Source of the DNA: Cephalotus follicularis
Lineage: Eukaryota; Streptophyta; Magnoliopsida; Oxalidales; Cephalotaceae
Direction: 5' to 3'
DNA: 64,000 bases
NCBI GenBank assembly: GCA_001972305.1
Contig: BDDD01000903.1
Location: forward strand, 237,118-301,117
A program made the position numbers and the translations under genes. The stretch's first letter is position 1. Each line of letters opens with the position of its first letter. Below are positions 2,937 to 57,680 of the stretch, piece after piece. The notes below the pieces were generated by a model that ran no database searches, was not told the origin of the DNA, and worked only from the letters and a program-made list of their open reading frames with translations.

Positions 2937-2996
2937 ACAGTCGACTGTCTGATGGGTGGTGTGACAGTCGACTACCTATTAAAGACAGTCGACTGG
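2937..2996. repeat. Palindrome cluster CAGTCGACTG (first LTR cluster, element 1)
   Basis: Three copies of acagtcgact begin at about 2937, 2963 and 2984, roughly 195-250 bp after the LTR start. The last two are 21 bp apart. Confidence 0.8.
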
Positions 2997-4049
2997 AATG
3001 GTACAGAACAGGTGTCTGTGCATGCATGTGAGACAGAACTATGGCATTGCATGAGGGACAAGTGTTATGCGAGTCACCAGTTGCCATAACATGCAAGAGG
3101 AGTGCCTTGGATGTCCTCTATTCCTTCTGCAAGATTTGCAGACCTACAACCTGCAAAAACAGAAGAGAAAAGAGTGAGGAGAGGTGCATGTGAGAGAGAG
3201 AAGGAAAAGAGGGAAGGTTGAATTAATGGGATCCTAATGAATTCTAAGACTCTAAAACCTTTATATCAGCTGTGAAGAGCTGATTTGTGTGTTAGGAAAC
3301 ATTGAGGAGAAGAAATCAAAGGAAAGATTATCTTGGAGCTTGCATGTAGGAAGTTGGAGTTCAAAGTAGTTTTAAGGCTTGAATCTTCCTGGTAAGTCAC
3401 TAATCCGAATTCCTTAATGTTGTTATGGTTAATAGCTAGGAAAACAGACTAGGATTAGATATCCATATCTTCTGTTAACATGATTAAGATTAATAATTTC
3501 TTGAATTGAGATAGAATGGGTAAACGGTTCAAAGAGGAGTTGAAATTATAAGCCTCTAATTTGAATCATGGCTGCTGTTATGGTTGTCAATAGGTATATG
3601 TATGTTGATCACCATCTATACATACCTTCTGTAACGTGAAAACATAGTACTTGTTGATATTGGAGTTGAATAGTGGACAGATGTTGTGAAATGTAAAAAT
3701 GGAGGCTTAATGAACTATTGATGAGCTACTATTGGAGTAGTAATTTGTAACTGGATAATTAGTTAAACTTACTGACTAAATGTCTGAACCTTCGAGCATG
3801 CATTGTATAGATAAATTTTGCTGAGATTGGAAGGTTAAGTTGGTGAAAGAGCTTTGGACATTAAAGAGAGAAATCAATCCAAATTGATTTCGGGATAGCG
3901 TTTAAGGTAGGGGTAATGACATGTCTTTGAAGATATAATATGCATATCATGTTTGGTTAATTTTCTGTTTGATTGCATCTACTGATTGCTTTAGTATTTG
4001 GAAATTGAATATGCAAACCCTGCTGCTGCCTGCCAATTCCTGGGCAAAG

Positions 4050-4191
4050 CAGTCGACTGTTCTTCATGGCAGTCGACTACTCAATCGAACCGGTCGACTG
4101 TTAAGATCCAATAGTCGACTACTAAATCAAAATAGCCGACTGTTCTTGGGGACAACCGACTGTTATTGGGGACAGTCGACTGTCCTGGGAT
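4050..4191. repeat. Array of seven 21-bp units with CAGTCGACTG core (second LTR cluster, element 1)
   Basis: Units begin at about 4050, 4070, 4091, 4112, 4133, 4154 and 4173, so the period is 19-21 bp. The core agtcgact or agccgact is kept while the linker between cores varies. The core is a perfect palindrome in most units. Confidence 0.9.
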
Positions 4192-5469
4192 AAATTCTGA
4201 TATACGTTCTATTTAGGGCTTAAATTTAATGTAATTAACCTGGCCTCCATATGGGATGACTGTAACAGTCAATCCTGGCCTTATATAATTACATTCCAGA
4301 AATTAAACAACGTATGCACTTCTTGTGGAAGTTGTGCAAGAATGACTATGGTATGCTAATGACTTTATTGAATCCTCGAATTGTTATTGTGCCTTATTAA
4401 TCTGCTGTATATGCTACTGTTACAAATTGTACATACTAGTTGAGTGTTCATAAACACTACTGTTCCATTACTTTCAAGGGATTGAACCAACTAAGTGCTA
4501 TATGCACAATTAATGATTTCAACTATCATTTTCTAATGAAACCTAATGATTACTGTTTTCCTCCAATGTGAGGTATTGTTACTATACTGAATATCATTTT
4601 CCTCCTACGAGATGTACGATTACTGAACCGTAATTGTTTCAAAGAAAACAACTTATATTGCATAATATTGATATATGTAATATTACTACTGAATTGATTG
4701 AATTTATTGTTTATGTTATTGCCGTTAGTCGAGTGATAGGAGACATCACTGGCTACGGAGGTGGTCCTATGTGCCAGGAATTGGATAGAGTATCCACCCA
4801 AACTGTCTGCAATGCATATCTTGATTGTTAAACTGCCCGCTAATGCCGGTAGTAACTTACCTGATCTATCATCTTCGGAGTGAAGGGTGATAGATAGGTG
4901 GTTAACAGTTGGTGCTAGGAGTTAGCGACATGTGACACCTAAACCACTGTATTGATTGATTGTTCCCTTGTACGGTATTCTTGCATTGTACTGTCTATTC
5001 CCACTTGGCCTGATTGCTTATATATTGGAATATTTAAAAATGCTAGTTTATATAAAATGTCATACATGTTGCATGTATAGATTCAATTATCATGCATTAT
5101 TCCTACTTAGCCAAGTGAGGACAACGGCTAACCCCTACAATTTCAGATTAAGCGAAGACGCACAGGAGGTGCTGTTGGAGCTTTTGGAGAGTTGCTATTC
5201 CTGTTAAGGTTGTTACTCTTATGTTGTATTTTGTTTTGTAATGAACGATTCGCACTCCGTTGTTGTTGTTGTTGTTGTACTTTCCTTATGTATAAGGATA
5301 TTGTTGGATTGTACGAGCACGTAGTATGGGCTGCGTGCGGATGACTTTTATTTTATAATCCGGTTTATGGAATGCTTCCGCTTATATATTTGAATTGTTA
5401 TTTGGAATGCTGCATTATTTTCTACTTATTCCTAATATCACCACACATGTTGTCTAACGGGGTGTGACA

Positions 5470-7176
5470 ACAATATCTTGTAGGTTCTCAGTCCCATACT
5501 AGAGGACCCACTGTAGGTATTGATCTTCCGGCACAGCCGGAGGATCGGGTGTATGTATCGATCGTTGGAGAGAGGTAGGTATACATATGGATTTAAAATT
5601 ATTCTAACGATGATGAATCTCATGTGTATATAATCACCATAATTTTTTGATTTGGTTTTGTAGTGACTTTCCAGTCCCTGAAGTTAAATCTAATATCGGT
5701 GCGTTGTTTAGAAGTAGGTTACTACAACCCTGGCACAAACACAGTTTGTGGCCTCAGGAAGAGCGTGATCAGCTGTGGGAGAAGTTATGTGTAAGTCAAT
5801 TGTTTAACATTTCATTTTGCTACAACCCGCATTCATAGTTTGCTAACAACTTTAAATGATTTTTTATTTGTAGGAGTTTTTTTTATTTTGATTCGTCAGG
5901 CAAAGCTTGAGCAATGTTTGACCAGTACTGCAAAATTAATTACAAAAAGTGGATGTGCGATTTGAGGAATGAGTCGAAAATGCTTGCAAAAGTAAATGAC
6001 CTCACAGAGGCCTGCAGGCAGTTCCCCCCAAGAATCTTTCCCCCACCAGTTTGGGAGCAACTGATGGATATATGGCTGGATCCTGGTTGGCAGGTTACCT
6101 CTTCAAGGCAACAGAACAATAGGTCTAGTGTAAGTCATCTTCCCTACACTGGAGGAAATCGCAGAATGAGCCAACTGCTGAAGGAGGCGGTATATAACCG
6201 AGAACTTAATCTTTATTAACCATTTATTTCTTACTTGTTGTCCATTAACTTGTATTGTTTTTTTATTTTTGTATTTAGGAGAAAAATAATGAAGACTTGG
6301 CAGATCTTTTTAATAAATTTCACACTCCCAAAGGTGCTACTGAGCCTCGTGAAGAAGTTGCTGCTTGCTTTGTAAGTTATACTTACAGTGAATTTAGTAT
6401 CAAGTGAATATGATTTTATTTGTGATGCAAATCTTGAGGAATAACATACGTAATTTTTTTTTATTGTTTCTTTGCAGAATACGTACAAAAAACTGAAGGC
6501 GGATGTTACAATGAGAGGAAGAGGAGAAGGGGTGGCGGGGGCATCATCACAACCACCTGCGAAGGTGGTTGACTTGGACATGCGGTTGGAGACAGTGGGA
6601 AAGCCGAAGAAGGGGATAATTCGTGGCCTTGGAAATTTTATAAATGCTAAAAAGGCAAAGAAGAAGTATCAATCGAGCTCATCATCATGTAATGATCATT
6701 GTGTAGAAAGCAGAGCTTCAGTTCATTGTGGTCCTGATCATACTCCTAGTGTTCCTGATGCGAGCATGGAGGAGGTGGTTCAACGACATATTAGAGGACT
6801 GCGTGAGGAACTTATGGCAGCCATGATCGCGCAGATTGCAACTATTCAGGACATGTTTGCAAAGCATATGAGAGGGTCATATCCTTGAGCGTCGCACAAT
6901 ACCCCAAATGCGACTACACACTTTGATCCTGGTGTTGGTCCTCACTCGGCTGCTTGTCCTGTTGTTTCGTCATCGCAGCAGACTTCATACGGTCCTTAGT
7001 TTGCTCCTCCGCATCGGATTACTCACCAAGCAGCTCCACCAGCGCAATTTGGTCAGCCTACCCCTTCTCGGCACCGTGCTTATCATGACCCGCCTTCTCC
7101 GTACCCAGATGTTCGTATGTATCGGTCACAACATGATGATGATGATGATGATGATAATGAGGACGATGATGATTAG
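5470..7176 (+). pseudogene. Transposase_24-like (plant En/Spm) gene remnant, multi-exon
   Basis: Resembles the plant Ptta/En/Spm protein family (Transposase_24) that accompanies CACTA transposase. Exon-like blocks: to about 5573, 5664-5790, about 5874-6189, 6279-6371 and 6478-7176, with GT/AG borders. Diagnostic pieces are a KKWMCDLR block near 5951-5974, a PPPVWEQL block near 6046-6069, and a YTGGNR block near 6145-6162. The last exon has a basic region, a Gln/Met-rich helix near 6760-6870 and a Pro-rich then poly-Asp tail. Lesions: an expanded T run near 5876-5884, TGA at 5908, TGA at 6886 and TAG at 6997, after which the frame stays open to the poly-Asp tail. CACTA TnpA-like proteins bind subterminal repeats, which fits the repeats at 11183-11864. 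Family match is by recall, not by search. Confidence 0.75.
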
Positions 7177-7386
7177 GATCGCGATGATGCGCACTATTGT
7201 GCTGATGATTAGATGTGAACATTCGTCAAAGTTTTTTTGCTGTTAAATTGCAGGGACATTGAATAAGATACTGTTTTCATGCTATTCTTTTCTTGTGACA
7301 ACATTTATGAATTTTGATATTGGAATTTCATATTTGTTCTTATTGTTTGGTTGCCTTTTTGCTATGTTTTCTTCTGCTTCTTGCAG

Positions 7387-10774: not shown

Positions 10775-11182
10775 GTTAATTACTGTCTAGATTGCAACTG
10801 CTGGTGTCATGTATATATTGCAGCATAATTGTACACAAATTGCTATAAATCTGTTGACATATTGTAGATTTTAGGATGTAAATTTTGAGTGGATCATATT
10901 TCTTATAATTATATCATAAAATTGTATAACAAGTGGTATAAGCTTGTTGAAAAGACTCACTCCTGTAAATTTTTTTCTAATGAATTGTCAATTTTTCTTT
11001 TATATTGTTGCTCACGTACTTGCAATCGTTGGATCAGTACATAGGAATCAAAGAAAATGTTAATTGCAAATCATCGTAGTGGTTGCTTGTCCACCAAACT
11101 ATCTAACTTATAATTGACCAAAAGTGATTGGTCACAAAAACCGTGATAGCAAAAATTATATATTTCTCATAATCTAACTTAC
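10775..11182 (+). other. Non-coding 3' part of CACTA element
   Basis: AT-rich sequence between the last captured exon and the subterminal repeats. No reading frame or RNA gene was recognised. Confidence 0.4.
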
Positions 11183-11864
11183 CGACCGCTTCAAGCTTTC
11201 CCGACCGTCCATAGCGGTCGGGAAACCATTACAAAATTCATTTAATTTCAAAAATTATTGACAATTGCCGACCGCTCATATATTCCCCGACCGCTATAGG
11301 GGTCGGTAAATCCTTATAAAATTCAATTAATTTCAAAGATTACTGATAATTGCCGACCGCTTAAAAATTCTCCGACCGCCAAAGCGGTCGGCTTATCCTC
11401 ATGAAATTAATTTAATTTAAAATTTATTGTCAATTGCCGACCGCTTAAAGATTTTGCCGACCGCTAGTAGCGGTCGAGGACCATTATAAAACTAATTTAT
11501 TCTTAAAAGTTATGGTTAATTACCGACCGCTAATTTATTTCCCGACCTCTTATAGCCGTCGGCAAACCCTTATAAAATTATATTACTTTCACAAATTTCT
11601 TTTTTTCCCGACCACTTTCAACAATCTCCAACCGCCGGAGCGGTCGGTAAACCCCCATAAAATTTATTTTTTGACACCGAACAACAGCAACCGCTTCCCT
11701 TCCCAACCATTTTTGCGGTCGGTAAATGAAAAAGGCGGTCGGGGAACCGGTCGGGGTCTAATTGGTGACCCGATTATAAGCGACCCCCATTGCGGTCGGC
11801 TAGGCGGTGGAGAAAACTTTTGCCGACCGCTTTCAAGGTTTTCCGGACCGCTATGGCGGCCGGG
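11183..11864. repeat. CACTA subterminal repeats, ~85-bp period
   Basis: Repeated modules of the form CCGACCGC, 15-25 bp spacer, then an inverted GCGGTCGG. Modules begin near 11183, 11267, 11353, 11435 and 11521 (period 82-86 bp), with degenerate ones near 11607, 11689 and 11820. Such direct and inverted short motifs next to the ends are the binding platform of TnpA-like proteins in CACTA elements. Confidence 0.88.
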
Positions 11865-11873
11865 AAATGGTCT

Positions 11874-13628: not shown

Positions 13629-14012
13629 TGTCACACCCCGTTTCCACAGGACATAATGAACATAGAAAGTGGTACGGCAATCAACATATAAATCCGGCTT
13701 ATGCAAAATTACCATAAAATTTAAACTTTCAGAATCCTTCATCAAATTGCGGAAGCATACAAATATAAGCCGAAGCAAAACACATCACGCATCCCATACT
13801 ACGTGATGCCCACAAATATAAATATCTCCAGGTACAACTGTCGATCGCCCAAAACGGAGCGTGAAACAATACGGTACAAGATAACAAAATATCCAATGTT
13901 ACAAAAACCAAATAACATGATAAATGTTCCATAACCCAAAATAAGAGAAAATGTTCAAGTGGCCAGAATGGCCGTCTGCAATGAACATCACAGTTCAACA
14001 ATTTCCCAGAAA

Positions 14013-14052
14013 AGGAGTCGACGTCTTCTACAAAGACGTCGATGTCTTTGAC
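14013..14052. repeat. Palindrome pair GACGTCGAYGTC (solo LTR, distal cluster)
   Basis: TCGA centres at about 14018 and 14039, 21 bp apart. The unit resembles the perfect palindrome AAAGACGTCGACGTCTTT. Confidence 0.88.
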
Positions 14053-14802
14053 AGTACAGAACGGGGTTTTCACGGTTCCCGCATACCAAGCCATTTCTAA
14101 ATCAATCCTTTACACAACAGAATCACATATTCATGTAATCATACATGCAAGCTTAACTCAGTGTACCACAGTAACATTTCAACAAGTACAGAATCTCAAT
14201 CCATTCAACAACATGCAATTCACATGCTATACATTTACTTAGAACTTAAAAAGCACATATGAATCCATCACTTTCCCCTACCTTTGATTTCAAGTTAGAA
14301 ATCGAAAGTCCACCTCTTTTAGTACTCCAACAGGTCACTTGAGTCCACAGGTACGCTTGGCAACTTCCTGCTTCGTCCTAGCAGTTGGTGTGCAAGCTCC
14401 AAGCTCCAACAATGGCACACACACACACTTTTTCCCTTTCTCTTTTCTCTCTTTCCTTCTGGTGTTATAAAACGAGAGAGATATGTGGGGAGGAATATCC
14501 TTAAGCAGATAGCTTCCTCCTGCCCTTTTCCTTTTGTCAATACACAGACCAACCCGAGATCTCTCCCACTTTCTCTCTTTCTGCCTATTCTTTTGCATAT
14601 ACAAATCTTCCTTTGCAGGTGGCATATGGCAGGTGAGGATTCCTCTGCATGTTCCATGTGAGGACATGTTCTGGGAATTCCTAGCAACACACAGGCACGG
14701 TTAACACGTCGAATCGCACTCGAAAAGGCGGTAGATAAGGCCCTTAAATAATCCCCCTTGCATGTTATTTCTGCCGAAGAAGAACGTGCTGGCCATTCTT
14801 AC

Positions 14803-14965
14803 AAAGGCGTCGACGTCTTCCATTAGACGTCGATGTCTTTTCCAATTTGTAAGAAGGTATCGATGCTTTCTCCCAGGGTCGACGTGCATGCCCATGCATT
14901 CACGTGAGCCCTAGCTTACAAAGGAGTCGACGTCTTTTCCAAAGACGTCGATGTATTTTCCCCAG
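14803..14965. repeat. Palindrome cluster GACGTCGAYGTC (solo LTR, cluster near LTR start)
   Basis: TCGA centres near 14810, 14830, 14860, 14879, 14927 and 14948, that is three pairs spaced 19-21 bp, 165-325 bp from the LTR start. Confidence 0.88.
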
Positions 14966-15131
14966 AACGCTGCCGTTCAAGCTTTAACATACACATTCCA
15001 ATTCTATGACCATAAATAGGGTTTTAAGCATACTTTTGAGTCCAAAACTCAACATTCTCATTATTCCAATTTAAGAATTACATCATAAATCAAAACATTA
15101 CATTCAGGATAATACCGGGCGTTACACGGGT

Positions 15132-17372: not shown

Positions 17373-17423
17373 TAGAAGAAAATTTTATTTGGCTATTTTT
17401 TTTGGATGAATTTCATGTTGAAA

Positions 17424-17690
17424 GCGTCGATCTAAAAGGTTAAGAGTTGACAAAACTGTCTAAAGCGCCGACGGTTTTATTTAAAGAGTCGACGCTTTGG
17501 GTAGCAGTCGATGTCCTAATTTTAAACGTCGACGCGTTGAATTTAAATGTGTAAGTTGACTTGGACGAAGACTTAAAGCATCGATGCTTTGTAGGAAAGC
17601 GTCAGCGCTTTAGTCGGGATAGAGGTGAAAAATGCAGGAAAAAGGCTGTGACCGTCGATGCTTAGATATAAAGAGTCGACGCTTTGCCCT
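17424..17690. repeat. Array of GTCGAC-type palindromes, element G LTR
   Basis: Cores at about 17426, 17446, 17467, 17488, 17507 and 17528, then pairs 17580/17601 and 17654/17675. Spacing within runs is 19-21 bp. Typical unit: AAGCGTCGACGCTT with variants. Confidence 0.85.
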
Positions 17691-18549
17691 GTGTCAGGTG
17701 CAGAATTATAAGTTTTTACCCCATTTCGGAGGAATTAAATGGATTGTAGGACACGTGGCAAGCAAGGTGTAATATCCCGTTTTTCGTATAGAATTTTTCT
17801 GGGCTTTTCGATATGTTTTGTATGGGCTTTTCGATATGTTTTGTGTGGGCTGCCGATTGTTTTTCGGTTTGTGGATTGCCCGTTTTTCGGTTTGTTTTGC
17901 TTTTGGCTTGGCTAAACGGGTTTTAGTCTTAGCCAATGGGTTTTGATTTTGTGTCCATGATTTGATAAAATAAATTTGTGGCTTTTTATTTTTTGTGTTA
18001 AAAACCATTTTTAGCATTTTTACAAAAAGAAAATCATTTTTGCATTTTTTTTAGAAGTCAAAAAGCCTACATTTTGTGTTAAAACATTGTATCCCTCTCT
18101 CTCTCCCTCTCTCTCCCGACCATCTCTCTCTCTCCCGTTCTCTCTCACCTCTCACCTGCTGCCGCCACCATCGGGACCGATTCAGCGCCGGCGAAGGGTA
18201 CCATTCCCCAATCATTTCGAAAATATATATATTCGTAAATTATACATTTTCGCAAATTTCATTTGGTTTCATATATGAACCCTTAAAACATTTTTCTGTC
18301 ATTGGAAATACTTCCCCAAATAGTTCGAAAATATATAAATTCATGATTTGACAAATATACATTTTCGTACCCAAATAACCATAACAATCATACAAGCTTT
18401 ACAAAATGGTTTAAAACTTTTAGGAAAGCAACCATAATGCAATTCACAGTAACAATGCAATCATATGCTCAGAATGCATCTAGGTTCATTTCTAGAGTCG
18501 TTCCGGGTCTAACGGTTCTCATTCATGTGAAATTCTACTGTCCAGGAGG

Positions 18550-18680
18550 AAAGACGTCGATGTCTTTCCATAAGGTGTCGATGTCTTTTAGCCTAAAGCG
18601 CCAGATCAAAGCACAAATGTTCCCAGGCTTTTCTGGACCAAAGACGTCGATGTCTTTTACAAAGACGTCGATGTCTTTTT
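18550..18680. repeat. Two GACGTCGATGTC palindrome pairs
   Basis: TCGA centres near 18557/18578 and 18647/18668, both 21 bp apart. Confidence 0.87.
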
Positions 18681-18894
18681 CATACCAGGGAGTATCAGTT
18701 GCAAGCCTTGATTCAAGAGGCTAAAATCCAACCCCTTAATCTCTCATATAAACGAATCTTATTCCATAAACGTATAGGGTATACTACTGACTAACAGGTA
18801 CACAATCATAACATCAATCCTAAATCAAACAGGAAATTTCAAGTGGCCAGAATGGCCGTCTGCAATGAACATCACAGTTCAACAATTTCCCAGA

Positions 18895-18940
18895 AAAGGA
18901 GTCGACGTCTTCTACAAAGACGTCGATGTCTTCGACAGTA
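18895..18940. repeat. GACGTCGAYGTC palindrome pair, copy of 14013-14052
   Basis: Same sequence and spacing as the pair in the solo LTR at 14013, as expected from the shared LTR family. Confidence 0.85.
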
Positions 18941-19356
18941 CAGAACGGGGTTTTCACGGTTCCCACATACCAAGCCATTTCTAAATCAATCCTTTACACA
19001 ACAGAATCACATATTAATGTAATCATACATGCAGGCTTAACTCAGTGTACCACAGTAACATTTCAACGAGTACAGAATCTCAGTCCATTCAACAACATGC
19101 AATTCACATGCTATACATTAACTTAGAACTTAAAAAGCACATATGAATCCATCACTTTCCCCTACCTTTGATTTCAAGTTAGAAATCGAAAGTCCACCTC
19201 TTTTAGTACTCCAACAGGTCACTTGAGTCCACAGGTACGCTTGGCAACTACCTGATTCGTCCTAGCAGTAGGTGTGCAAGCTCCAAGCTCCAACAATGGC
19301 ACACACACACACTTTTTCTCTTTCTCTCTTCTCTCTTTCCTTCTGGTGTTATAAAA

Positions 19357-19928
19357 CGAGAGAGATATGTGGGGAGGAATATCCTTAAGCAGATAGCTTC
19401 CTCCTTCCCTTTTCCTTTTGTCAATACACAGACCAACCCGAGATCTCTCCAACTTTCTCTCTTTCTGCCTATTCTTTTGCATATACAAATCTTCCTTTGC
19501 AGGTGGCATATGGCAGGTGAGGATTCCTCTGCATGTTCCATGTGAGGACATGTTCTGGGCATTCCTGGCAACACACAGGCACGGTTAACACGTCGAATCG
19601 CACTCGAAAAGGCGGTAGGTAAGGCCCTTAAATAATCCCCCTCGAGAGAGATATGTGGGGAGGAATATCCTTAAGCAGATAGCTTCCTCCTACCCTTTTC
19701 CTTTTGTCAATACACAGACCAACCCGAGATCTCTCCCACTTTCTCTCTTTCTGCCTATTCTTTTGCATATACAAATCTTCCTTTGCAGGTGGCATATGGC
19801 AGGTGAGGATTCCTCTGCATGTTCCATGTGAGGACATGTTCTGGGCATTCCTGGCAACACACAGGCACGGTTAACACGTCGAATCGCACTCGAAAAGGCG
19901 GTAGGTAAGGCCCTTAAATAATCCCCCT
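19357..19928. repeat. Tandem duplication, 2 x 286 bp
   Basis: Unit 19357-19642 is repeated at 19643-19928, beginning cgagagagatatgtgg each time, with few differences. The related solo LTR at 13629-15126 has a single copy, so the duplication is specific to this insert. Confidence 0.9.
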
Positions 19929-19972
19929 TGCATGTTATTTCTGCCGACGAAGAACGTGCTGGCCATTCTTAC

Positions 19973-20135
19973 AAAGGCGTCGACGTCTTCCATTAGACGT
20001 CGATGTCTTTTCCAGTTTGTAAGAAGGTATCGATGCTTTCTCCCAGGGTCGACGTGCATGCCCATGCATTCACGTGAGCCTAAGCTTAAAAAGGAGTCGA
20101 CATCTTTTCCAAAGACGTCGATGTCTTTTCCCCAG
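19973..20135. repeat. GACGTCGAYGTC palindrome cluster, copy of 14803-14965
   Basis: Same three-pair arrangement as in the solo LTR, with point differences at CpG sites (for example gacatc for gacgtc). Confidence 0.85.
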
Positions 20136-20298
20136 AACGCTGCCGTTCAAGCTTTAACATACACATTCCAATTCTATGACCATAAATAGGGTTTTAAGCA
20201 TACTTTTGAGTCCAAAACTCAACATTCTCATTATTCCAATTTAAGAATTACATCATAAATCAAAACATTACATTCAAGAAAATACCGGGCTTTACACA

Positions 20299-24243: not shown

Positions 24244-24545
24244 CAGTCGGTTGTTTTCCTTCAATAGTCGGTTGTCCTAAACTGGCAGTCGGCTGCCCAC
24301 ACTCGACAGTCGGCTGTCATCCTTGACAGTCGGCTGTTTATACCTAACAGTCGGCCGCTGGCCTACAACAGTCGGCTACTCAAGCCTCTGCAGGCATTTC
24401 TTAGTAACACACATTGAAAGTCGACTGGCTCCCAAGCACAATCGGCTGGATCCATTGAGTAGTCGGCTGCTCGTACCGAACAGTCGTCTGGCGCACTCGA
24501 GCAGTCGGTTGTCCTCTTGGACAGTCGGCTGGATTCTGCAGAGAG
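24244..24545. repeat. Two arrays of 21-bp units with CAGTCGGCTG core
   Basis: First array: cores at 24244, 24265, 24286, 24307, 24327, 24348 and 24369. Second array: 24418, 24439, 24460, 24481, 24502 and 24522. Thirteen units in all, each 20 or 21 bp from the next within an array; linkers vary while the core is kept. Confidence 0.93.
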
Positions 24546-24611
24546 TGCAGAAAAACAGCAGCAAAATAAAGCCATAACTCACAACGATCCATTCTAACAC
24601 ACAACGAATCA

Positions 24612-24720
24612 TAGCATCGACGTTATCTCTAAGCGTCGACGTTTATCGCGAAGCAGGACTCATTGTCCGTATAACAATCTATAGCGTCGACGCTTCTTTC
24701 CTAAGCGTTGACGGTTAAGC
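24612..24720. repeat. GTCGAC palindrome pairs in the same LTR
   Basis: Cores at about 24616/24635 and 24686/24707, spaced 19 and 21 bp, of the AAGCGTCGACGCTT type. Confidence 0.82.
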
Positions 24721-27974: not shown

Positions 27975-30127
27975 TGTAACACCCCGCGCCCGCAGGGCGG
28001 ACACGTGGTATTACTCTCAATCCAATACACAATACAATGGTTGGGACTAGCAATATAAAAATGTGAAAAAACTTAAAACTTTGCAATACTTATCATATGC
28101 AGAAGCTACAATACAATAAACCATCCATACAAGTACAAATCCTTTACAATACCACTCTTTTTCAATACAATACAGTTCAATCTTTCACTACAATATCTCA
28201 CAACCAGCTCCATGATACCCAAGCAGTCGTGCGATAAAAAATAGTCTTCAGTCCTTCTGTCCGCTGCTACCTGCTGCCCTACCTATGCCGCACACAAAAG
28301 TACAACACAGCCCACCCCGAAGGATGGGGTTAGCCACACTTGCTAAGCAGGAACCTCATGCAGCATGTATGCATGTACAATGTGCGATATCTGTGACAAT
28401 CTATGCAATATCAATGTGCGGTGTACAATATCAATGCATGACATGGCAAATGCATATGTACAGTTGGCGATCAGACTACCTGTATGACAATGGCCCATAA
28501 CAGAGCATACGGATAGGATCTATAACAATCAATCAATGGCAGACACTCAATGGTGGTGTATAAAACACCCAACCAATCAATCAATATCCTATAGAGCATA
28601 CGACCTCGGGTCAATACAATGTTAATCAGTTAGCAGTGATCAATCCCACAGAAGGTAGTCCTTCAAAAAAGGTGGGAGATCTATCTAAGGTCCTCAGATT
28701 GATCAGGTCTGGGACTCATAGATCTTCCAGCCTATGGTTGGGTCATTACAATCTCGATGAGCTACAACCGATGGAGCTACTGATACCATTAGGGAGCTAG
28801 GGCCTCAAGGGAGCATCAATCGATAATCAATTGGTACCGCTCGTCAGCGGGTCAATACAATACAGTGAATGAAACGATCGACGAAATAGGTGGATAGCGT
28901 GAACAACCTTACATGCTAACACATATCATAAGGTCACTCTATAGGATCCATACAATACAATTAATCATGTCAGTACAATATCATTACAATGTCAATAGGC
29001 AAAGTCAATGAGTGACGGTATCTAATGGAGGGTCGGGAATGTGTGTCCAACTTACCGACTTAGACTCACATCACTCATGACACAAGTAATCAATCGCTTA
29101 GTACAATCATTAAAACCGTTTTCAAACACTTGAACACCTCAAGTTAGGCTCCAGTCAAGTGGCAATGTGAAAAGAAGTTGAAAACCAGCTTTAAAGTAGT
29201 TAAAAACTCCTTTCAGTCCATTCGGCGTCGATGTCCTTGGTGAAAGACGTCGTCGCATTTGTAAAATGGTGGAAAGACATCGATGTCTTTCTCTATTTGT
29301 GTAGAGATCTGGCCGAAAGAAGTCGATGTCCTTGGAGAAAGACGTCGACGCGTTTCAATAAAAATAGCCTGGGAATGTGCATCGATGTCTTTTCTGGGGA
29401 AAGACATCTCGAGGCAAAGACGTCGGTGTCTTTGCTGCGGAATCATAGATACAACACTCTGAAGCGAAAGACATCGACGCCCACGGGCTAGGGGTCGATG
29501 TCTTTGCTGGACAGGGTCAAGTTTTGCGTAGAAAACGCTGCCTATCTTATACCAAAATACAATTTAAAGCCATTCTTTGAAAACCAAGGTTTAAAACCAA
29601 TCATTTGAGGTTAGTAAAACTTGTTACAACCTTCAAAATTCAGTTTCAATCCCCCTAGATCAGTTAGATCAAGGAAATCAATAAAACCCTTGTTTTTCAA
29701 TTCAATGCAATACAATTACTCAATTCAATCAACATTCAATCAACTATGCAATTAAGCAATAGGCAATCAAGTAGGGATGTCCTACCTTTAATGAAGCTTC
29801 AATAGTGGAGCTAACGATCGATCAAGGCTAGAAACACTCAAGAAGTGGCTGCTATGTCACTCAATCGGCAACCCACACTTGCAATCGGTATCCTTGTTGA
29901 AAGATATGCAATCCGGCTGCTATAGAGATGGAGGGAGGCTGCCAGCAAGAGAGTGAGAGGGAGAAGAATGAAAGAATGAGAGTGAGAAACTGAATTATAT
30001 AGTCAATTCGACCAACTCTTCGAAACTCAACCCAAAATCCTGACTGTACATGCATATACACATAAATACGGTCTAATACGGTACAATGTATTCATGAACA
30101 GTACAAAAGGGAATTCGTGTCATCACA
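27975..30127 (-). mobile_element. 3' LTR of Gypsy element 4
   Basis: On the reverse strand it starts TGTGATGACACG at 30127, right after the polypurine tract, and ends GCGGGGTGTTACA at 27975. Length 2153 bp; clearly the partner of 47317-49572. Palindrome cluster at 29222-29510. Confidence 0.92.
29222..29510. repeat. GACGTCGAYGTC palindrome cluster, element 4 3' LTR
   Basis: At least nine cores; pairs at about 29228/29250, 29323/29345 and 29474/29495 are 21-22 bp apart. Central TCG is kept in most, while the outer CpG positions often read TG or CA. Confidence 0.85.
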
Positions 30128-38150: not shown

Positions 38151-39425
38151 TGACGAAATCGGATATACCGAGTCCAGTGCCAAAATGGACTTAAGTGTTA
38201 AGGGTGTAGAATAAAACTTTAAACATACAATCATACAGCGGAAGAACACCCAATAAAACATAAACAAGTCCGTAATGGCACGTCCACAGACCACATGGAT
38301 CACCACAACATCTACTAAATTGAATTGGTATCACCATTGCATCCAATGGTGACACACAAACATGGTATAAGGAAGAAGGAACAAGAGTTTATACCAGCGG
38401 GTGTTGGCTCCTTCGTTCTTTGCCGCTACAAGCTTGAAGCAGATTCCCTTTGATCTCCTCCAAGTCTCAGGAACAGCAAGTAATTCAACCAACAAGATCA
38501 AAGTGCTTGAACTCACTCTCTCTCTCACTTAGCTTAGAAAAGGACCATTGATTATGACCAATGAAGTCAATAATCAATCCACCCTAGATAAGCCTTGCTT
38601 AGTGTATATCAAATGAAGGAACACTCGCTTGCAGAGAAGAATTCGAGGTTAATTGCCCAGCAAAAATTGTCTCTCATTTTAATTTTCATTTTCTACAGAA
38701 ATACTTATAACCAGCCTTCAATTCTCTCTCCCAATCTCCCATTAATTCAGGATCATGGCCTTCACTCCTTGGGAGTCTGATGCCATAATTCCACGTTTCT
38801 CGAACGTGTAGAATCGAGAGAAACCGGCTAAGGATGTGAGAGGAGTAGTGCCCACGATTTGCGGTTGTGCATAGGTTGCACGTTCTGCTCAAAGATGTCG
38901 ACGTCTTCCGAAAGACGTCGACTCCTATGCAACGTGGCACTAAAGCACATCGATGATTTCTAAAAGACATCGACGTCTTTATCAGGGAAACGCATCGATG
39001 CCTTTCTAAAAGACGTCGACGCCTTCTGGCTAGTAAAACATAAAAAGTCTAACTCCTTTAGTGTTTTCATGTCCCTTCGAATATTGGTTAAGTAAGATCA
39101 AACATAAGTGTTTCCACAAAATGTAAGATCCACATAACCGATATTTGACAGCAAGACTTAATATGTCCAACATATTAAAGACCTAGTCATTATAAGGCAG
39201 GGACCCTTTAAAATATTGGTTATCAGAGAGGTGTTCATAAATTACCGAAATACCCCTCGGGTCCGGTTTAGCCATTCTAAAAGGTCCTCGACCAATTTAA
39301 ATGCTGTTGGAATAATATCCAATATTATCCATATGGAAAAATCAATCTAATTAATTTTCCCAACACCTCAATAACCACAGATTTTCTAAGTTGTCGGTTC
39401 GCGTGCACTATAATCCCTTGTCATA
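38151..39425 (-). mobile_element. 3' LTR (truncated) of Copia-like element
   Basis: Homologous, with few differences, to 41026-42300. The ~870 bp corresponding to 42301-43169, which hold the LTR start, are missing here. Confidence 0.82.
38890..39030. repeat. GACGTCGACGTC palindrome cluster, Copia-like LTR
   Basis: Cores at about 38897/38917, 38949/38969 and 38994/39015; three pairs with 20-21 bp spacing. Confidence 0.88.
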
Positions 39426-41009
39426 AATGGGTAGGCTTTCTTGCCAATTTGTATCCAATACAAGATCCAATCATAGTATTTGGCCTTAGATTCAATATGG
39501 CCTCAGCTAGGGCATGACAAACCATCAGAATCTTGATAAGTCCAGTACCCACAATTTTCATTGGAATGCACTAGTTTTAACACCCGCACGTAGGTGTGCC
39601 CAAGTGCTAAAACATAGCCACCCTTTGCGGTGCCCAACACCGACGTTGACATAATATCCCCAAGTCATCAGCCTCAGCTAGGGCATGACAAACCAATAAC
39701 CCAGGAACACTACTCAACGAAAATTGTGGAAGGCCATGGGGATCCACTCCATGGGTTCCTACGTTACGACTTATTATTGTATTGAGGGAATTTGCGGTCT
39801 CAAGTTTTAATTACCAAACCATTAATTAATTCAATGGTTATATTAGCCAATTTCAATTAATTACGGCTCATCATGCAAGACGTGTATCTTATGCACCTTG
39901 GACATATTTCTAAAATATGTCAATGGATCTTGGCCAGGACATTATTAGTAGTGACTTGAGCCCAAAGTTATTACAAGGTCTTCCTAGGTGTAAGGATATA
40001 AATCTATTTATTACAACATTAACCATCCATACATGGCCTTCAAAAGTCTTGTACTTCATATCTCCTTGACTCCATCTCTCCTTGCATAGTCTTCTTTTAC
40101 AAAAGGAACAGTACATTTTTGAAAAGAAATTTTACATTTAAAACAAGGAGAAATTAAAAAGGTAAGGAAAATAAATGGTGCACGCAGGCACCTTATTACA
40201 GACCTTTAAAGATAATAAATAAATTAAAATCCATCCACACTTAGAAAACAATAAACTAGGTCAAAGTCCTTTTCGGGCCATCCATTGTGCATAAGATCTA
40301 CATTATATCCAATATAATGAAACCACAAGATAAAACAAATGCCATAAATGATAACCAATTACACAATTTAATTCAATGATTGTTAATTGATCAAACTCCC
40401 ACTAAATCAAGCAATGATTTTAATCTTCCAGGTGCCAAAATGTATAAAATCCAATTTTATACAAAAACAGTTTTTTTTATTTATAAAAGACGTCGACGCC
40501 TTACCAAAAGCATCGACGTGTTTTCTGGAAAAACAAGGCGTCGATGCCAAAAACAGAGCATCAACGCATTTGACAAGAACATTTAAAAAAAGGCGTCGAC
40601 GTCCAAAAATAACATCGACGCGTTTCACAAAGTATGATCCAGACATCGATGTCTATGATGAACGTCGACGTCTTTACTGGGAATTTGACATAACATCGAC
40701 GTCTTACCAAAGTCGTTGACGTCTTTAGCCCCCTGGGCATTTTATGCATTTCAAAAATGCTGAATTCAATGGTTTAGACTATGGTATACCATTCTGGTAT
40801 TCCAAAATGCACTATGTATGTTCCAAACTTAATTCTAAACACATTTAAACAACATTCCCAGCATTAAAACACAATGAAATCCAATTTCATGCAATTTTCA
40901 TTAAGGCACTTAGAAAATTTAGTTTGATCACAAAAACACATCCAATGATTAAACTATTAATCATTACATCATCCAAGGCATACATATTCAATTAAGGATG
41001 ATGTGGGAC
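39426..41009. other. Internal region of Copia-like element, non-coding
   Basis: No coding domain. It contains a direct repeat, cctcagctagggcatgacaa at 39499 and 39671, and the palindrome cluster at 40490-40725. Confidence 0.6.
40490..40725. repeat. GACGTCGACGCC palindrome pairs in internal region
   Basis: Cores at about 40493/40513, 40541/40561, 40596/40615, 40646/40665 and 40696/40716; five pairs with 19-20 bp spacing within each pair. Confidence 0.9.
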
Positions 41010-41021
41010 GCTCTGATACCA
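41010..41021 (-). other. tRNA-Met type primer binding site of Copia-like element
   Basis: Reverse strand reads TGGTATCAGAGC, four bases before the LTR end at 41026. Confidence 0.88.
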
Positions 41022-41025: not shown

Positions 41026-43169
41026 TGAAATCGGATATACCGAGTCCGGTGCCAAAATGGACTTAAGTGTTAAGGGTGTAGAATAAAACTTTAAACATAC
41101 AATCATGCAACGGAAGAACACCCAATAAAACATAAACAAGTCCGTAATGGCACGTCCACAGACCACATGGATCACCACAACATCTACTAAATTGAATTGG
41201 TATCACCATTGCATCCAATGGTGACACACAAACATGGTATAAGGAAGAAGGACCAAGAGTTTATACCAGCGGGTGTTGGCTCCTTTGTTCTTTGCCGCTA
41301 CAAGCTTGAAGCAGATTCCCTTTGATCTCCTCCAAGCCTCAGGAACAGCAAGTAATCCAACCAACAAGATCAAAGTGCTTGAACTCACTCTCTCTCTCTC
41401 ACTTAGCTTAGAAAAAGGAGTATTGATTATGACCAATGAAGTCAATAATCAATCCACCCTAGATAAGCCTTTCTTGGTGTATATCAAATGAGGAAACACT
41501 CACTTGCAAAGAAGAATTCGAGGTTAATTGCCCAGCAAAAATTGTCTCTTATTTTAATTTTCATTTTCTGCAGAAATACTTATAACCAGCCTTCAATTCT
41601 CTCTCCCAATCTCCCATTCATTCAGGATCATGGCCTTCACTCCCTGCGAGTCTAATGCCATGATTCCACGTTTCTCAAATGTGTAGAATCGAGAGAAACC
41701 GGCTAAGGTTGTGAGAGGAGTAGTGCCCATGATTTGCGGTTATGCATAGGTTACACGTTCTGCTGAAAGACGTCGACGTCTTCCGAAAGACGTCGACGCC
41801 TATGCAACGTGGCACTAAAGCACATCGATGCTTTCTAAAAGGCATAGATGTCTTTATCAGGGATACGCATCGATGTCTTTCTAAAAGACGTCGATGCCTT
41901 CTGGCTAGTAAAGCATAAAAAGTCTAACTCCTTTAGTGTTTTCATGTCCCTTCGAATATTGGTTAAGTAAGATCAAACATAAGTGTTTCCATAAAATGTA
42001 AGATCCACATAACCGATATTTGACACCAAGACTTAATATGTCCAACATATTAAAGACCTAGTCATTATAAGGCAGGGACCCTTTAAAATCTTGGTTATCA
42101 GAGAGGTGTTCATAAATTACCGAAATACCCCTCGGGTCCGGTTTAGCCATTCTAAATGGTCCTCGACCAATTTAAATGCTATTGGAATAATATCCAATAT
42201 TATCCAGATGGAAAAATCAATCTAATTAATTTTCCCAACACCTCAATAACCACAGATTTTCTAAGTTGTTGGTTCGCGTGCACTATAATCCCTTGTCATA
42301 CTTGGCCCCGATTGAGGTCTAGGGTAAGGATATGTGTCAACCCTAGATAGTACCTCAATGGCTAAATTATCTGATCATTACGAGGACCTTTGATAAACTC
42401 TCCAGAAATCTAATTTCCAGTCTACCTCAACCTTGGCCAAGGATTTCATAAGTCCAAAGTATAATCAGACAATAATAGGACCGATCACCTTTGCTCAGCT
42501 GTGACAATCCCTTATTGCGCACTCACTTATATTTGTATAGATTCGATCATACCCAAAGACCACCCGATTGCCAGTCCTGCGCAAGGACTGGGTAAGGTGG
42601 AGATCAAAGCATCACCGTCTCCATACAATATAGAGTGGTCGCTCAGGTCTAAGGATCAGACGAGTTTAAGAACTCGCTAAGTGATCATTACTTATACACA
42701 ACCGCAACAAGTAGGAGTCACTACTGACACGAGAATAGCGACTATCCAAACAGTGTCTCTTACGCGGGTCCTGTTCAGTGTACACGCTCCCAGCGCATTG
42801 CCCTAGTGTCCAACACAGATGGTAGTGAGAGAATCCATCCCCCGATTCCATGAGCAGGCAACATACACGCAAGTCTATCCGGTTCACTAATGCCCAAAAA
42901 GTGAACCTATGACTTGTAACAAGTTTGACATAAGGAGTAAGGTAACCAGTCTCACAGCCTCCATGCCAGGCATCCAACCTTATGTCGGGGCATCACTAGT
43001 ATAAGTAGGTAATTAAATAAACTACTTCAATTATGTGATAAAATACAAGTGATATAGCCATAACAAATTTAGCACGCATCATATATATAAAAGAATAAGA
43101 TTGTTCCATACATGGTAAGATATAATATGACAACCCATATAATGGCTTGTCGGGTCACTATATCTAACA
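41026..43169 (-). mobile_element. 5' LTR of Copia-like element
   Basis: 2144 bp; on the reverse strand starts TGTTAGATATAG and ends CCGATTTCA. Palindrome cluster at 41764-41910. The open frame at 42666-42977 is not a credible gene. Confidence 0.85.
41764..41910. repeat. GACGTCGACGTC palindrome cluster, Copia-like 5' LTR
   Basis: Copy of the cluster at 38890-39030, first pair at about 41772/41792. Several CpG sites differ between the two copies. Confidence 0.86.
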
Positions 43170-43170
43170 G

Positions 43171-47313: not shown

Positions 47314-47316
47314 TTC

Positions 47317-49572
47317 TGTAACACCCCGCGCCCGCAGGGCGGACACGTGGCATTGTTCTCAATCCAAAACACACTGCAATGGTTGGGACTAGCAATATAA
47401 ATATACGAAAAAACTTAAAACTTTGTAATACATATCATATGCGGAAGTTACAATACAATAAACCATCCATACAAGTACAAATCCTTTACAATATCACTCT
47501 TTTTCAATACAATACATTTCAATCTTTCACTAGAATATCTCACAACTAGCTCCGTGATACCCAAGCATTCATGAGATCAAAACGAGTCTTCAGTCCTTCT
47601 GTCCACTCTGACCTGCTGCCCTACCTATGCCGCACACAAAAGTACAACACAGCCCCACCCTGAAGGATGGAGTTAGCCATACTGGCTAAGCAGAAACCTC
47701 ATGCAGCATGTATGCATGTACAATGTGCAATATCGATGACAATCTTTACAATATAAATGTGCGGTGTACAATATCAATGCATGACATGGCAAATGCATAT
47801 GTACAGTTGGCGATCAGACTGCCTGTATGACAATGGCCCATAACAGAGCATACGGATAGGATCTATAACAATCAATCAATGGCAGACACTCAATGGTGGT
47901 GTACAAAACACCAAATAAATCAATCAATATCCTATAGAGCATACGACCCCGGTTCAATACAATGTCAATCAGTTAGCAGTGATAAATCCCACGGAAGGTA
48001 GTCCTTCAAAAAAGGTGGGAGATCTATCTATGGTTCTCAGATTGATCAGGTCTGCGACTCATAGATCTTTCAGCCTATGGCTGGGTCAATACAATCTCGA
48101 TGAGCTACAACCGAGGGAGCTACTAATACCGTTATGGAGCTACGGCCTCAAGGGAGCATCAATCGACAGTCAATCAGTACCGCTCGCCAGCGGGTCAATA
48201 CAATACAGTGAATGAAATGATCGACGAAATAGGCTGACAGAGTCAACAACCTAACACGCCGACATGAATCATAAGGTCACTCTATAGGATCCATACAATA
48301 CAATCAATCATATAAGTACAATATCATTACAATGTCAATAAGCAAATTCAATGAGTGACGGTATCTAATGGAGGGTTGGGAATGTGCGTCCAACTTACCG
48401 ACTTAGACTCACATCACTCATGACTTAAGCAATAAATCGGTCAGTACAATCATTAAAACCGTTTTCAAACACTTGAACACCTCAAGTGAGGCTCCAGTCA
48501 AGTGGAAATGTGAAAAGAAGTTGAAAACCAGCTTTAAATTAGTTAAAAACTCCTTTAAGTCCATTAGGCGTCGATTTCCTTGTAGAAAGACGTCGAGGCA
48601 TCTGTAAAATGGTGGAAAGACGTCGATGTCTTTCTCTATTTGTGTAGAGATCTGGACGAAAGACATCAATGTCCTTAGAGAAAGACGTCGACGTGTTTCA
48701 ATAAAAAGAGCATGGGAATGCGCATCGATGTTCGAAATCGATGTCTTTTCTGGGGAAAGACATCTCGAGGCAAAGACGTCGATGTCTTTCAAAGGCGTCG
48801 ATGTCTTTGCTGTGGAATCACAGATACAACACTCTGAAGCGAAAGACATCGACGTCCACGGGCTAGGGGTCGATGTCTTTGCTGCGTAGGGTTGAATTTT
48901 GTGTAGAAAAACCTGCCAATCTCATACCAAAATATAATTTAAAGCAATTCCTTGAAAACCAAGGTTTAAAATCAATCATTTGAGGTTAGTAAAACTTGTT
49001 ACAACCTTCAAAATTCAGTTTCAATCCTCGTAGATCAGTTAGATCAAGGAAATCAATAAAACCCTAGTTTTTCAATTGAATGCAATACAATCACTCAATT
49101 CAATCAATCATTCAATCAATTATGCAATTAAGCATTAGGCAATCAAGTAGGGAAGTCCTACCTTTAACTAAGCTTCAAAAGTCGAGCTAACGATCGATCA
49201 AGGCCGAAAACACTTAAGAATCGGCTGCTATGTCACTCAATCAGCAACCCACACTTGCAATCGGTATCCTTGTTGAAGGAGATGCAATTCGACTGCTATG
49301 GAGATGGAGGGAGGCTTCCAGCAAGAGAGAGAGAGGGAGAAGGATAGAGAGAGGGAGAAGAATGAAAGAATGAGAGAATGAGAGTGAGAAATTGACTTAT
49401 ATAGTCAATTCGACCAACTCTCCGAAACTCAGCCCAAAATCCTGACTATACATGCATATAATCAATACAATAACAATAGGTATAGGAATACCTCTGTTCA
49501 ATACAACTCGATACGGTCCAATACGGTACAATGTATGCATGAACAGTACAAAAGGGAATTCGGGTCATCACA
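47317..49572 (-). mobile_element. 5' LTR of Gypsy element 4
   Basis: 2256 bp, partner of 27975-30127, with about 100 bp length difference and many point differences. On the reverse strand starts TGTGATGACCCG and ends GCGGGGTGTTACA. Confidence 0.9.
48568..48880. repeat. GACGTCGAYGTC palindrome cluster, element 4 5' LTR
   Basis: Counterpart of 29222-29510, including gacgtcgatgtc near 48618 and a pair near 48775-48800. Differences between the two LTRs fall often at CpG positions. Confidence 0.84.
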
Positions 49573-53148: not shown

Positions 53149-53243
53149 TCAATCATCCATCCTATCATCTCCATTATCTCCATCATCCCCAATCTTCGTG
53201 ATGTCGGTATTTTGATATTCATATGCATTTGCTTTCTCTTGAT

Positions 53244-53988
53244 TGTAACGCCCGGTATTTTCCTGAATGTAATATTTTGATTTATGATGTAACCATTAAT
53301 CTTGATTTAATGAGAATGTTGAGTTTTAACCTCAAAAGATGCATGCAAACCCTAGTTATGGACTTAAAGATGGAGTGTGTATGTTAAAGCTTGAAACGAC
53401 GCTGTTTTGGCCAAAAGACATCGACGTCTTTTGGAAAGGCGTCGACTCCTTTGTGAGCTAGGGCACAATATTTCACTGTACTGATATATGTAATTTCATA
53501 TATGTATAAATTGGGTCTCCACTGCACTGCATCATTTATGCATTCATATCATGACATGCATTATGTTAATCCCGATTTACTGTTATGACTTGGCCGAGTG
53601 AGGACAAAGGCTAACCCCCTACTGTAACAGATTGATGGAGTGGTCTTGACATGGAGCAAGCACGGAGATTTAAAGAGAAGACTTGTTATTTTCTATTATT
53701 TTGGGTTGTGGAACATTTATCATGTTATTTGGTTTTGTAACATCGGATATTTGTTATCTTGTACCGTTTTGTTCACGCTCCGTTTTATGGGCGGTTGACT
53801 TTATGACCTGTACTTGGGTAGCGTACGGTATGGGACGTACGTTACATGTTGACAGCTTATGTTCTTTTGTGCTTCCGCTACTGCTATGCTTGAGAAAGTT
53901 TTAAATTTCACGGTTTTGCATGAGCTGTATTATATGTTAATTGCCTTTACCGCTTTAATGTTGCGTTTATTGTAAACGGGGTGTGACA
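53244..53988 (+). mobile_element. Solo LTR (TSD ttgat)
   Basis: Starts TGTAACGCCCGG, ends GGGGTGTGACA, 745 bp, with perfect ttgat duplication (53239-53243 and 53989-53993). Same family as 13629-15126 but with a large internal deletion. One palindrome pair remains at 53415-53455. Confidence 0.94.
53415..53455. repeat. GACGTCGACGTC palindrome pair in solo LTR
   Basis: gacatcgacgtc then ggcgtcgact, about 21 bp apart, ~170 bp after the LTR start, the same position as in 13629-15126. Confidence 0.85.
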
Positions 53989-54903: not shown

Positions 54904-55156
54904 TGTTAGAGATAAAGTGTACAAGCCAGTGTTGAGCTGGTGTTTACTATATCTTGTATAAACGATTTATAAATTCATTAAAGATGCTTATGTTTTATCT
55001 TTGGCTATGAGTTCGTTTCATTAGTACATGCTTAATTAATCGTAAATGAATGTCCTGGAATAAAGTTAGAGAACCAAGTTCATGATGAGATCGTGATGTG
55101 AGATTTGGAATCTCGGTATATTTCATTTCAAATCTTCCTGGTCATAGGATTCACAC
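54904..55156 (+). mobile_element. Probable Copia-like LTR 5' fragment
   Basis: Begins TGTTAGAGATAAAGTG after gttgg, interrupting the plant transposon ORF. It is itself cut by an LTR terminus at 55157. Confidence 0.45.
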
Positions 55157-56425: not shown

Positions 56426-56589
56426 TGTAATGACCGCAATTTCAATTCGATGTATATTGTATAATTCGTTAAAAAAATTATACATTGATTTGAGATTATT
56501 TTCTAATTGTCCTTTTAATTAGCATATTGTTGTGGATATGGAAGGAAGCTAAGTAAAAGTGTTGAAAGTAAAGGAATCAGGGCACTTGT

Positions 56590-56795
56590 GTGTGTCAACG
56601 CCATGAATTGACGTCAACGGCAAGTAACATTGAAACGCGCTTAAGGCTTTTGCCTTAAGGTGTTGACGCCATGCGAGGACGTTAACGTCCATTATTGGTG
56701 AACTAAAGGGAATACGCGTTAACGCGACTAGAGGAGCTTGTTAACGCCAAGTTATGGAGTCAACGTGTTGATGCCCTGTGTTGATGTTGACGCCT
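56590..56795. repeat. GTTAACG/GTTGACG palindrome cluster (near LTR start, element 5)
   Basis: Cores near 56595/56614, 56662/56681 and 56718/56740, spaced 19-22 bp, then tighter copies at 56759-56790. Located 165-370 bp from the LTR start. Confidence 0.83.
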
Positions 56796-57314
56796 AAAGT
56801 GTCGGCAGAATACGTTAAAGGAAGGACAAAAGACGCGTGAGGGACAAAAGTGCGAGATTTTGCACTTCCCCTTGCTCTGCACTGATGAAAAGTGAGAGAA
56901 GAGTGATTGATGAGGTCTTATCACCAGCCATGAGGAAGGAGAGGGAGGAGCGACTCCATTAAATCTCCTCTCCTCTTCTCCGAACCTCACACCAGTGAAA
57001 AAGAGAGTGCGTGAGAGCATTTTTGTTCCACCATTTAAGCCGGGAAAAGAAGCTTGAGGACCAGATCTTGGAACTCGGAAGTGGAGTGATCGAACCGGAT
57101 CTTGAGGCTTGGAGAAGCTGAGGATCGGATTAAAGATTAAAGATGTGGACTTTCGATTCCTAACTTGGAATCAGAGGTAGGGTTTATGACATGCTTATGA
57201 AAATATGGCTTGTATATTGTGTTGGTGATTATGAGTGCTTGCATATTGATTCCAACTGTTAAATCCATGGTTGATTGAAATGGTTGTTAACTGATTATCT
57301 TTTTGCGTTCGATC

Positions 57315-57680
57315 CGCGTTAACGCCTAAATGATTGACGTTAACGCCTTAACAGGAATAGGTGGTATTTTGTATGGATAGGTTGGTTTTCGTCAACGCCT
57401 AAGTGGCTGACGTTAATGCCATAGCTAGAATTAGTTGATGTTTCGCACGTTGATGCGTAAAACCTATTGGCGTTTCCAGGACATCGACGCCTAAAAGGAC
57501 GACGTTGACGCTTAAGGTTCCTACCTTAACGCGTCGATGCCAATTTTGAACGTTGACGCCTAAGGTCCTTCCTTAATGTGTTAACACCGGTTTTGAATAT
57601 TGACTCGTAAATGACGTTAACTTCTAAGATACACGTTGATGCATAAGTGCTCTTTGACGCCTAAGATACACGTCGATGCC
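57315..57680. repeat. GTTAACGCC palindrome pairs (distal cluster, element 5)
   Basis: Pairs near 57318/57339, 57391/57412, 57483/57504, 57533/57552 and 57616/57635, spaced 19-21 bp. Typical unit gcgttaacgcc with gttgac and gtcgat variants. Confidence 0.87.

Follow-up and report, generated by a model that had tools for sequence, protein, structure and literature searches.

In Sireviruses the long terminal repeats (LTRs) contain palindromic RM boxes, 12 of 13 motifs having a CGG-CCG core, and the cited portions of that study describe these boxes as absent from other Copia elements (PMC2829016). Here we analyzed arrays of short palindromes in a 64,000-nucleotide (nt) stretch of contig BDDD01000903.1 of Cephalotus follicularis (the window), in 20 further loci, and by genome-wide searches of the 1.577 Gb assembly, whose counts are lower bounds given as "at least". 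The arrays are real, strong, and genome-wide; what is new relative to known arrays is a spacing rule and palindrome dialects that do not mix, in Gypsy elements, and palindromic LTR arrays are thereby extended from Sireviruses to Gypsy elements. In both systems, as far as the cited portions go, many short palindrome copies occupy the upstream part of the LTR and differ between elements, and two of the 13 tabulated RM motifs (Vitis and Tnd-1) have an RTCGAY core (PMC2829016). The two systems differ in that the RM boxes lie in Copia hosts, whereas the hosts resolved here are Gypsy-type, the core is RTYRAY, and the spacing and non-mixing of dialects are evident. Instead of CGG-CCG, the cores read RTCGAY or RTTAAY, with TCGG only in an array at 24.2 kb. 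RM boxes are also recognized by at least eight palindromes in the upper LTR half; two related LTRs, F1 and F2, hold 10 and 15 units, both in that half; in element A further units lie close to the LTR end and ahead of gag, and element B has fewer per LTR.

A second system is provided by VANDAL transposons, whose short-motif arrays are read by their own VANC proteins and whose motifs differ between related families (PMC5735166, PMC10398659). VANC-target arrays are also recognized by a loss of DNA methylation upon binding. According to the parts of these reports cited here, VANC targets resemble the present arrays in that they lie in non-coding parts and differ between related families, one VANC6 motif occurring also in an unrelated element; they differ in belonging to DNA transposons with an element-encoded reader and in having non-palindromic motifs in tandem repeats (PMC5735166, PMC10398659). 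F1 has no space for a reader downstream of pol, and the other elements in the window are incomplete. Retand elements, which carry tandem repeats and antisense open reading frames (ORFs), are, in the cited part of their description, likewise Gypsy elements that combine repeat arrays with a possible DNA-binding protein, but the arrays are placed between pol and the 3' LTR (PMC11963269), a region that measures 42 bp in F1. Insertion into palindromes is described, in the part of the source cited, as a slight preference only (PMC6911290). Among the titles and displayed abstracts of the papers listed in our literature searches, none named palindromes of this kind, or their spacing, for Gypsy LTRs, and among the listed matches of a motif-string search none concerned LTR palindromes by title.

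Spacing and core of the palindromic units

Near-palindromes around eight centres were counted at four rising thresholds against locally generated shuffles (dinucleotide model), in the window and in 20 loci of 10 kb at a fixed position on every 50th contig (C10 to C960), a systematic sample of the larger contigs in which 10,832 of the 200,000 bases fell outside the scan. TCGA-centred near-palindromes were in 4.0-, 7.6-, 14-, and 42-fold excess as the threshold rose, the last being 14 versus 0.3, while TTAA, ACGT, GTAC, GATC, TGCA, CCGG, and AGCT centres gave only 0-3-fold, the 3-fold case being 1 versus 0.3. A first-pass annotation of the window had named TCGA or TTAA centres and a bZIP-type GACGTC core. 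TCGA was indeed enriched; TTAA was rejected as a general palindrome centre (155 versus 166.0 in shuffles at the loosest threshold), GTTAAC being one looser dialect. GACGTC is not supported as a common element, being missing from the CAGTCGACTG and GTTAAC dialects; the common core is RTYRAY, usually RTCGAY, with RTTAAY and relatives in F2. The units also do not match bZIP (TGA-type) sites: the dyad centre is TCGA or TTAA rather than ACGT, and ACGT-centred near-palindromes were not enriched in this sample.

Palindromes were present at the sites first annotated, those at 17.4-17.7 kb being more decayed, and the distances between TCGA centres confirmed the annotated spacing: a sharp peak at 19-22 bp comprised 32 pairs versus 2.0 expected in the window and 61 versus 6.6 in the 20 other loci. 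Chance probably accounts for some of the 14 loci in which one or more such pairs occurred. When up to two mismatches were allowed, AAAGACRTCGAYGTCTTT occurred 31 times in the window versus 0.01 expected. Genome-wide, exact CAGTCGACTG pairs with the partner within 30 bp (31 gap lengths allowed) were found at no fewer than 48,687 places (control, 166). Among the first 69 matches listed, all on contig C1, the gaps were 9 (3 places), 10 (12), 11 (40), 12 (2), 17 (4), and 18 (8), and the 25 other allowed lengths were empty. These listed matches contain 30 non-redundant spacers, 24 of length 9-12 and 6 in a class with a centre distance of 27-28 bp, and the fourteen non-redundant 11-nt spacers share 25% identity, the random level. 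The spacing between units is constant, and the spacer sequence varies freely. In pairs with a gap of 17-18 on C1, several spacers hold a related ATGCGTGTTGTG-like word, so that such pairs may enclose a second motif. Two TGAGTCGACTCGC-like palindromes at 25446 and 25459 are 13 bp apart, outside the 19-22 bp rule.

Exact GACRTCGAYGTC pairs occur at a minimum of 18,445 places (control, 62), and among the first 50 matches listed the centre distances were 19-22 bp (25), 29-31 bp (3), and 40-42 bp (22), with a diverged middle unit in several of the last group. The 18 non-redundant listed pairs, distributed 8, 3, and 7 over these classes, were helically phased (R(10.5 bp) = 0.853, p about 5e-6 versus uniform 18-42). 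Since about 21 bp is two helical turns, the members of a doublet would share one helix face; three turns would match the 29-31 bp class and four turns the 40-42 bp class. CGTTAACG pairs of the GTTAAC dialect (at least 938 places; control, 27) were looser: among the first 50 matches listed, 20 non-redundant pairs fell at 18-21 bp (6), 31-33 bp (7), 36-38 bp (5), and elsewhere (2). Between one close pair (19-21 bp) and the next there are mostly 28-37 bp in B and F2, with longer stretches too in F2. All-pairs distances show phasing beyond the doublet, but such distances are not independent; as a general rule, helical phasing beyond the doublet was rejected, being present for the listed GACRTCGAYGTC pairs and broken by the 27-28 bp class.

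Could the rows be decayed short tandem repeats without function, generated by neutral duplication or slippage? Tandem Repeats Finder reported periods of 19-22 bp in several arrays, and tandem repeats are frequent in plant Gypsy elements, as stated in the cited part of the Retand report (PMC11963269). Duplication should, however, copy the spacers, yet these are random at constant length, which largely refutes it, and clusters whose flanks are unrelated share this core and spacing. Core identity, a value partly preset by the patterns that selected the units (a bias of which the genome-wide gap result is free), was 0.84 in a thirteen-unit array at 24244-24545, with 0.30 and 0.33 in its spacers, and 0.80 versus 0.37 in the seven-unit F1 array; three other window arrays gave 0.69 versus 0.32, 0.65 versus 0.37, and 0.52 versus 0.30. 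We regard neutral duplication as a very improbable source of the arrays.

At TCGA sites partnered at 19-22 bp (n = 177), position +3 was C or T in 97% of 354 half-sites, and it was near uniform in 658 unpartnered sites. The exact 18-mer AAAGACGTCGATGTCTTT has at least 37,431 copies genome-wide (reversed control, 161), and its two perfect forms occur at no fewer than 4,083 and 9,899 places, the latter being exact ATCGAT-centred palindromes. Seven stretches in viral contigs also contain the 18-mer. At the outer CpG, at least 37,431 copies carry one change versus at least 375 with the other, and where the first change is present, the other outer CpG splits at least 9,899 versus at least 1,830. 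This asymmetry is unlike the decay of methylated CpG alone because decay should yield TG and CA equally. Within families, transversions were lower in the units of each of A, B, and E (pooled, 0.0485 versus 0.0935 in nearby LTR), and transitions were higher in B (0.1375 versus 0.0826) and lower in A and E. As a sign of purifying selection within families, the transversions are suggestive, whereas no signal came from total identity.

Stress elements drive known plant LTRs, and factors of the CBF/DREB type bind the motif RYCGAC as monomers. Recognition of single half-sites by such factors would suit the 24.2 kb array, which reads GCCGAC on the other strand, and the ACCGACTG and GCCGACTG units of F1. 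RYCGAC is nevertheless unmatched by the 9,899 or more exact ATCGAT-centred palindromes and by the GTTAAC dialect, and dialects do not mix. Monomer binding also leaves the symmetry unexplained, and we consider the stress-element account most unlikely.

Host elements, dialects, and flanks of the arrays

The elements and arrays of the window are as follows.

2744..5469, plus strand: F1 3' LTR, Gypsy-type, with a TGTAATAACC start after a purine-rich tract, a TGTGACA end inferred by comparison with F2, and pol ORFs at 3-2702
2942, 2969, 2990, and seven at 4054-4177: F1 units, CAGTCGACTG-type
4030..4191, no strand assigned: F1 seven-unit array, centres 20-21 bp apart
13953..15126, minus strand: A left LTR copy, 97-98% repeats, TGTAACGCCC start on the minus strand, far end approximate
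14019, 14040, 14811, 14831, 14861, 14880, 14928, 14949: units of the A left LTR
17400..17700, minus strand: more decayed A unit stretch in which 6 units passed the score; gag ORF at 15839-16276, minus strand
18540..18690, minus strand: two A doublets adjoining the 5' LTR, 18558/18579 and 18648/18669
18834..20296, minus strand: A right (5') LTR copy, units as in the left copy, with an internal 286-bp tandem duplication
24244..24545, no strand assigned: thirteen-unit array, mostly CAGTCGGCTG, no element assigned
24610..24700, no strand assigned: GCGTCGACGC-type units at 24618, 24637, and 24688
27975..30127, plus strand: E LTR copy, units at 29281-29496, TGTAACACCCC start, 88% identical to 47317-49572; may be a solo LTR
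47317..49572, plus strand: second E LTR copy, units at 48572-48871
38154..39423, minus strand: B left LTR, units at 38899-39017, 96% identical to 41026-42298
40486..40727, minus strand: five B doublets in the 5' leader, units at 40494-40717, just before two TATA-like sites
41026..42298, minus strand: B right (5') LTR, units at 41774-41892, primer-site-like TGGTATCAGAGC at 41021 on the minus strand
53244..53500, plus strand: A-like LTR piece with the pair 53422/53443, 81-83% identical to A, TGTAACGCCC start
56426..58849, plus strand: F2 5' LTR, Gypsy-type, related to F1, with a TGTAATGACC start, a TGTGACA end, and TGGTATCAGAGC at 58854
56664-57637: 15 RTYRAY units of F2, mostly GTTRAC, including close pairs of 19-21 bp
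60240-61817: F2 Gypsy protease and reverse transcriptase ORFs

Besides the Gypsy domain order, Tekay-type chromovirus LTR elements have a TGTAA...CC LTR start and a TGGTATCAGAGC primer site. F1 and F2, candidates for this group, have Gypsy reverse transcriptase, RNase H, integrase zinc and SH3-like domains, a TGTAAT start, and, in F2, TGGTATCAGAGC; TGTAA...CC starts are common to the A, E, and F LTRs. F1, F2, and A adjoin Gypsy-type Pfam domains, and B, E, and the 24 kb array are without a protein-based class. The Pfam scan covered 44 of the 53 window ORFs of at least 110 amino acids (aa) and matched 13 families, among which there was no Copia reverse transcriptase; the Copia-like and Sirevirus-like labels of the first-pass annotation lack support among these ORFs, although Copia hosts may occur elsewhere, and its Gypsy assignment agrees with the domains. 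No candidate motif-binding protein was present among the same scanned ORFs, and a protein search with one ORF over an E array gave no match. In A and B the arrays lie in the LTRs and also downstream of the 5' LTR, in A before the gag ORF. The doublets of the B leader have internal distances of 20, 20, 19, 19, and 20 bp, and in the B right LTR a TATA-like site follows about 510-630 bp past the units. Two sampled loci, L034 and L045, contain LTR-like direct-repeat pairs with arrays in both copies. The tandem duplication in one A LTR spans 19357-19928 and is 99% identical.

Genome-wide, CAGTCGACTG lies within 30 bp of GACRTCGAYGTC at 12 places, all one related sequence, where free mixing would give roughly 59,900, a rough estimate based on both pair counts. 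The 84 adjacent unit pairs of the sample divided into 58 CG-CG, 13 CTG-CTG, 1 cross pair, and 12 in which a unit belonged to neither type or was mixed. Mixing of the two main dialects is thus almost absent, and because of this a single factor reading all types alike, as the annotation's shared factor would be, is disfavored.

Masked flanks of 44 arrays fell into 22 clusters without detectable mutual similarity (38 arrays in 14 clusters under a looser mask), and recent copying of one array, an outcome that the annotation had allowed for, was rejected as the sole cause. F1 and F2 are related Gypsy LTRs whose end stretches are 79% and 68% identical and whose middle blocks (3861-4013 and 57137-57282) align. 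Their arrays start 41 bp (F1) and 38 bp (F2) past this block, and the palindromes differ, being CAGTCGACTG in F1 and GTTRAC forms in F2. F1 and F2 retain the array position and not the palindrome, and the motif differs between related families as it does among VANC targets, with cross-dialect pairs limited to the 12 above. The homologous array positions and the common LTR starts would also follow if Gypsy families had inherited one ancestral array, with dialects arising by lineage drift and limited homogenization. Neither drift nor homogenization of whole repeats gives unrelated spacers with alike cores, and the flanks fall into 22 clusters. Remote common descent within Gypsy LTRs may have contributed, but descent alone is in our estimation a highly unlikely explanation.

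A candidate regulatory module

Each unit is two-fold symmetric, and pairs of units recur genome-wide in a manner that fits the putative dimeric DNA-binding sites of the first-pass annotation. We hypothesize, with a probability of about two in three, that the arrays are cis-regulatory modules of Gypsy-type LTR retrotransposons, located in LTRs and 5' leaders and composed of doublets of dimeric-protein sites in family-specific dialects. A dimeric sequence-specific protein would bind each RTYRAY (usually RTCGAY) core, since symmetric cores separated by a constant length of freely varying sequence are a hallmark of dimer binding plus neighbor contact. Two dimers 19-22 bp apart could then occupy the same helix face and bind cooperatively, as a tetramer or via a shared partner, and repeated doublets would form a high-occupancy platform that raises element transcription or keeps silencing away. 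The position of the B units upstream of a TATA-like site fits such a promoter or anti-silencing platform. The use of one dialect per family group would imply more than one reader, or a reader co-evolving with its sites. In F1 the integrase ORF ends 42 bp from the LTR, which speaks against a dedicated downstream reader gene there, and the reader would be host-encoded rather than carried by F1.

Several observations weigh against this hypothesis. The 27-28 bp class of CAGTCGACTG pairs (6 of 30 non-redundant, among the matches listed) does not correspond to whole helical turns, the distances of the GTTAAC dialect are off whole turns (R = 0.26, 20 non-redundant listed pairs), and in the sampled loci adjacent non-redundant units show no significant phasing past the doublet (p 0.056-0.11). 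The spacing of the genome-wide pairs was inspected among the first matches listed per search, and core conservation within arrays is partly fixed by the selecting patterns. High-copy founders may account for part of the CpG asymmetry: counted per flank cluster, TG exceeded CA in 9, the reverse held in 2, and 11 were tied (22 clusters). The transversion deficit gave p = 0.062 against a shift null (joint mask shifts, pooled A, B, and E), and unit columns of family B were no more identical between copies than the rest (0.827 versus 0.838), because transitions are raised there. Protein binding and effects on expression and methylation are predictions from sequence.

Four of five array stretches, moreover, fold strongly as RNA, as would be expected if the units acted in the element RNA, either by self-complementary pairing into hairpins or dimer contacts for packaging or by dicing into small RNAs. 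Folding z values of these four 150-nt stretches were -6.65, -5.15, -6.16, and -7.29, and the cited parts of two reports describe palindrome-rich regions in the LTRs of maize Sireviruses as small-RNA hotspots (PMC5311732, PMC10760457). The fifth stretch, the F2 array, does not exceed shuffles in folding (z -0.90, with 36 of 200 shuffles equally good), the asymmetric A units place A opposite C, not G opposite U, on the sense strand, and RNA pairing needs no 19-22 bp spacing with free spacers. RNA pairing is a less likely main function, and we judge an explanation at the RNA level improbable.

Within the regulatory-module hypothesis, we tentatively consider private codes, a doubtful but possible extension in which each Gypsy family group would use one dialect, arranged on a lattice of two turns, and have a tetramer-forming protein of its own to read it, with in-place dialect switches among related elements. 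If true, LTR retrotransposons would have an equivalent of VANC-target co-evolution in which each dialect numbers tens of thousands of sites. If a protein does read the sites, one genome offers several dialects, a strict spacing, and, for two of the dialects together, about 67,000 exact pairs at close distance, and sequence-specific retrotransposon control and code change become testable by binding assays.

A further element, C (34500-36249 and 46126-47145), has a different primer site and contained no TCGA pair; its left LTR carries a 94-bp tandem repeat (35604-35868) lacking in the right copy, and it has a 513-aa open frame at 43168-44709 on the plus strand without a Pfam match. At 11179-11669, an 85-bp tandem repeat is present in about five copies, and its unit holds a CCGACCGCTATAGCGGTCGG-like palindrome of its own.

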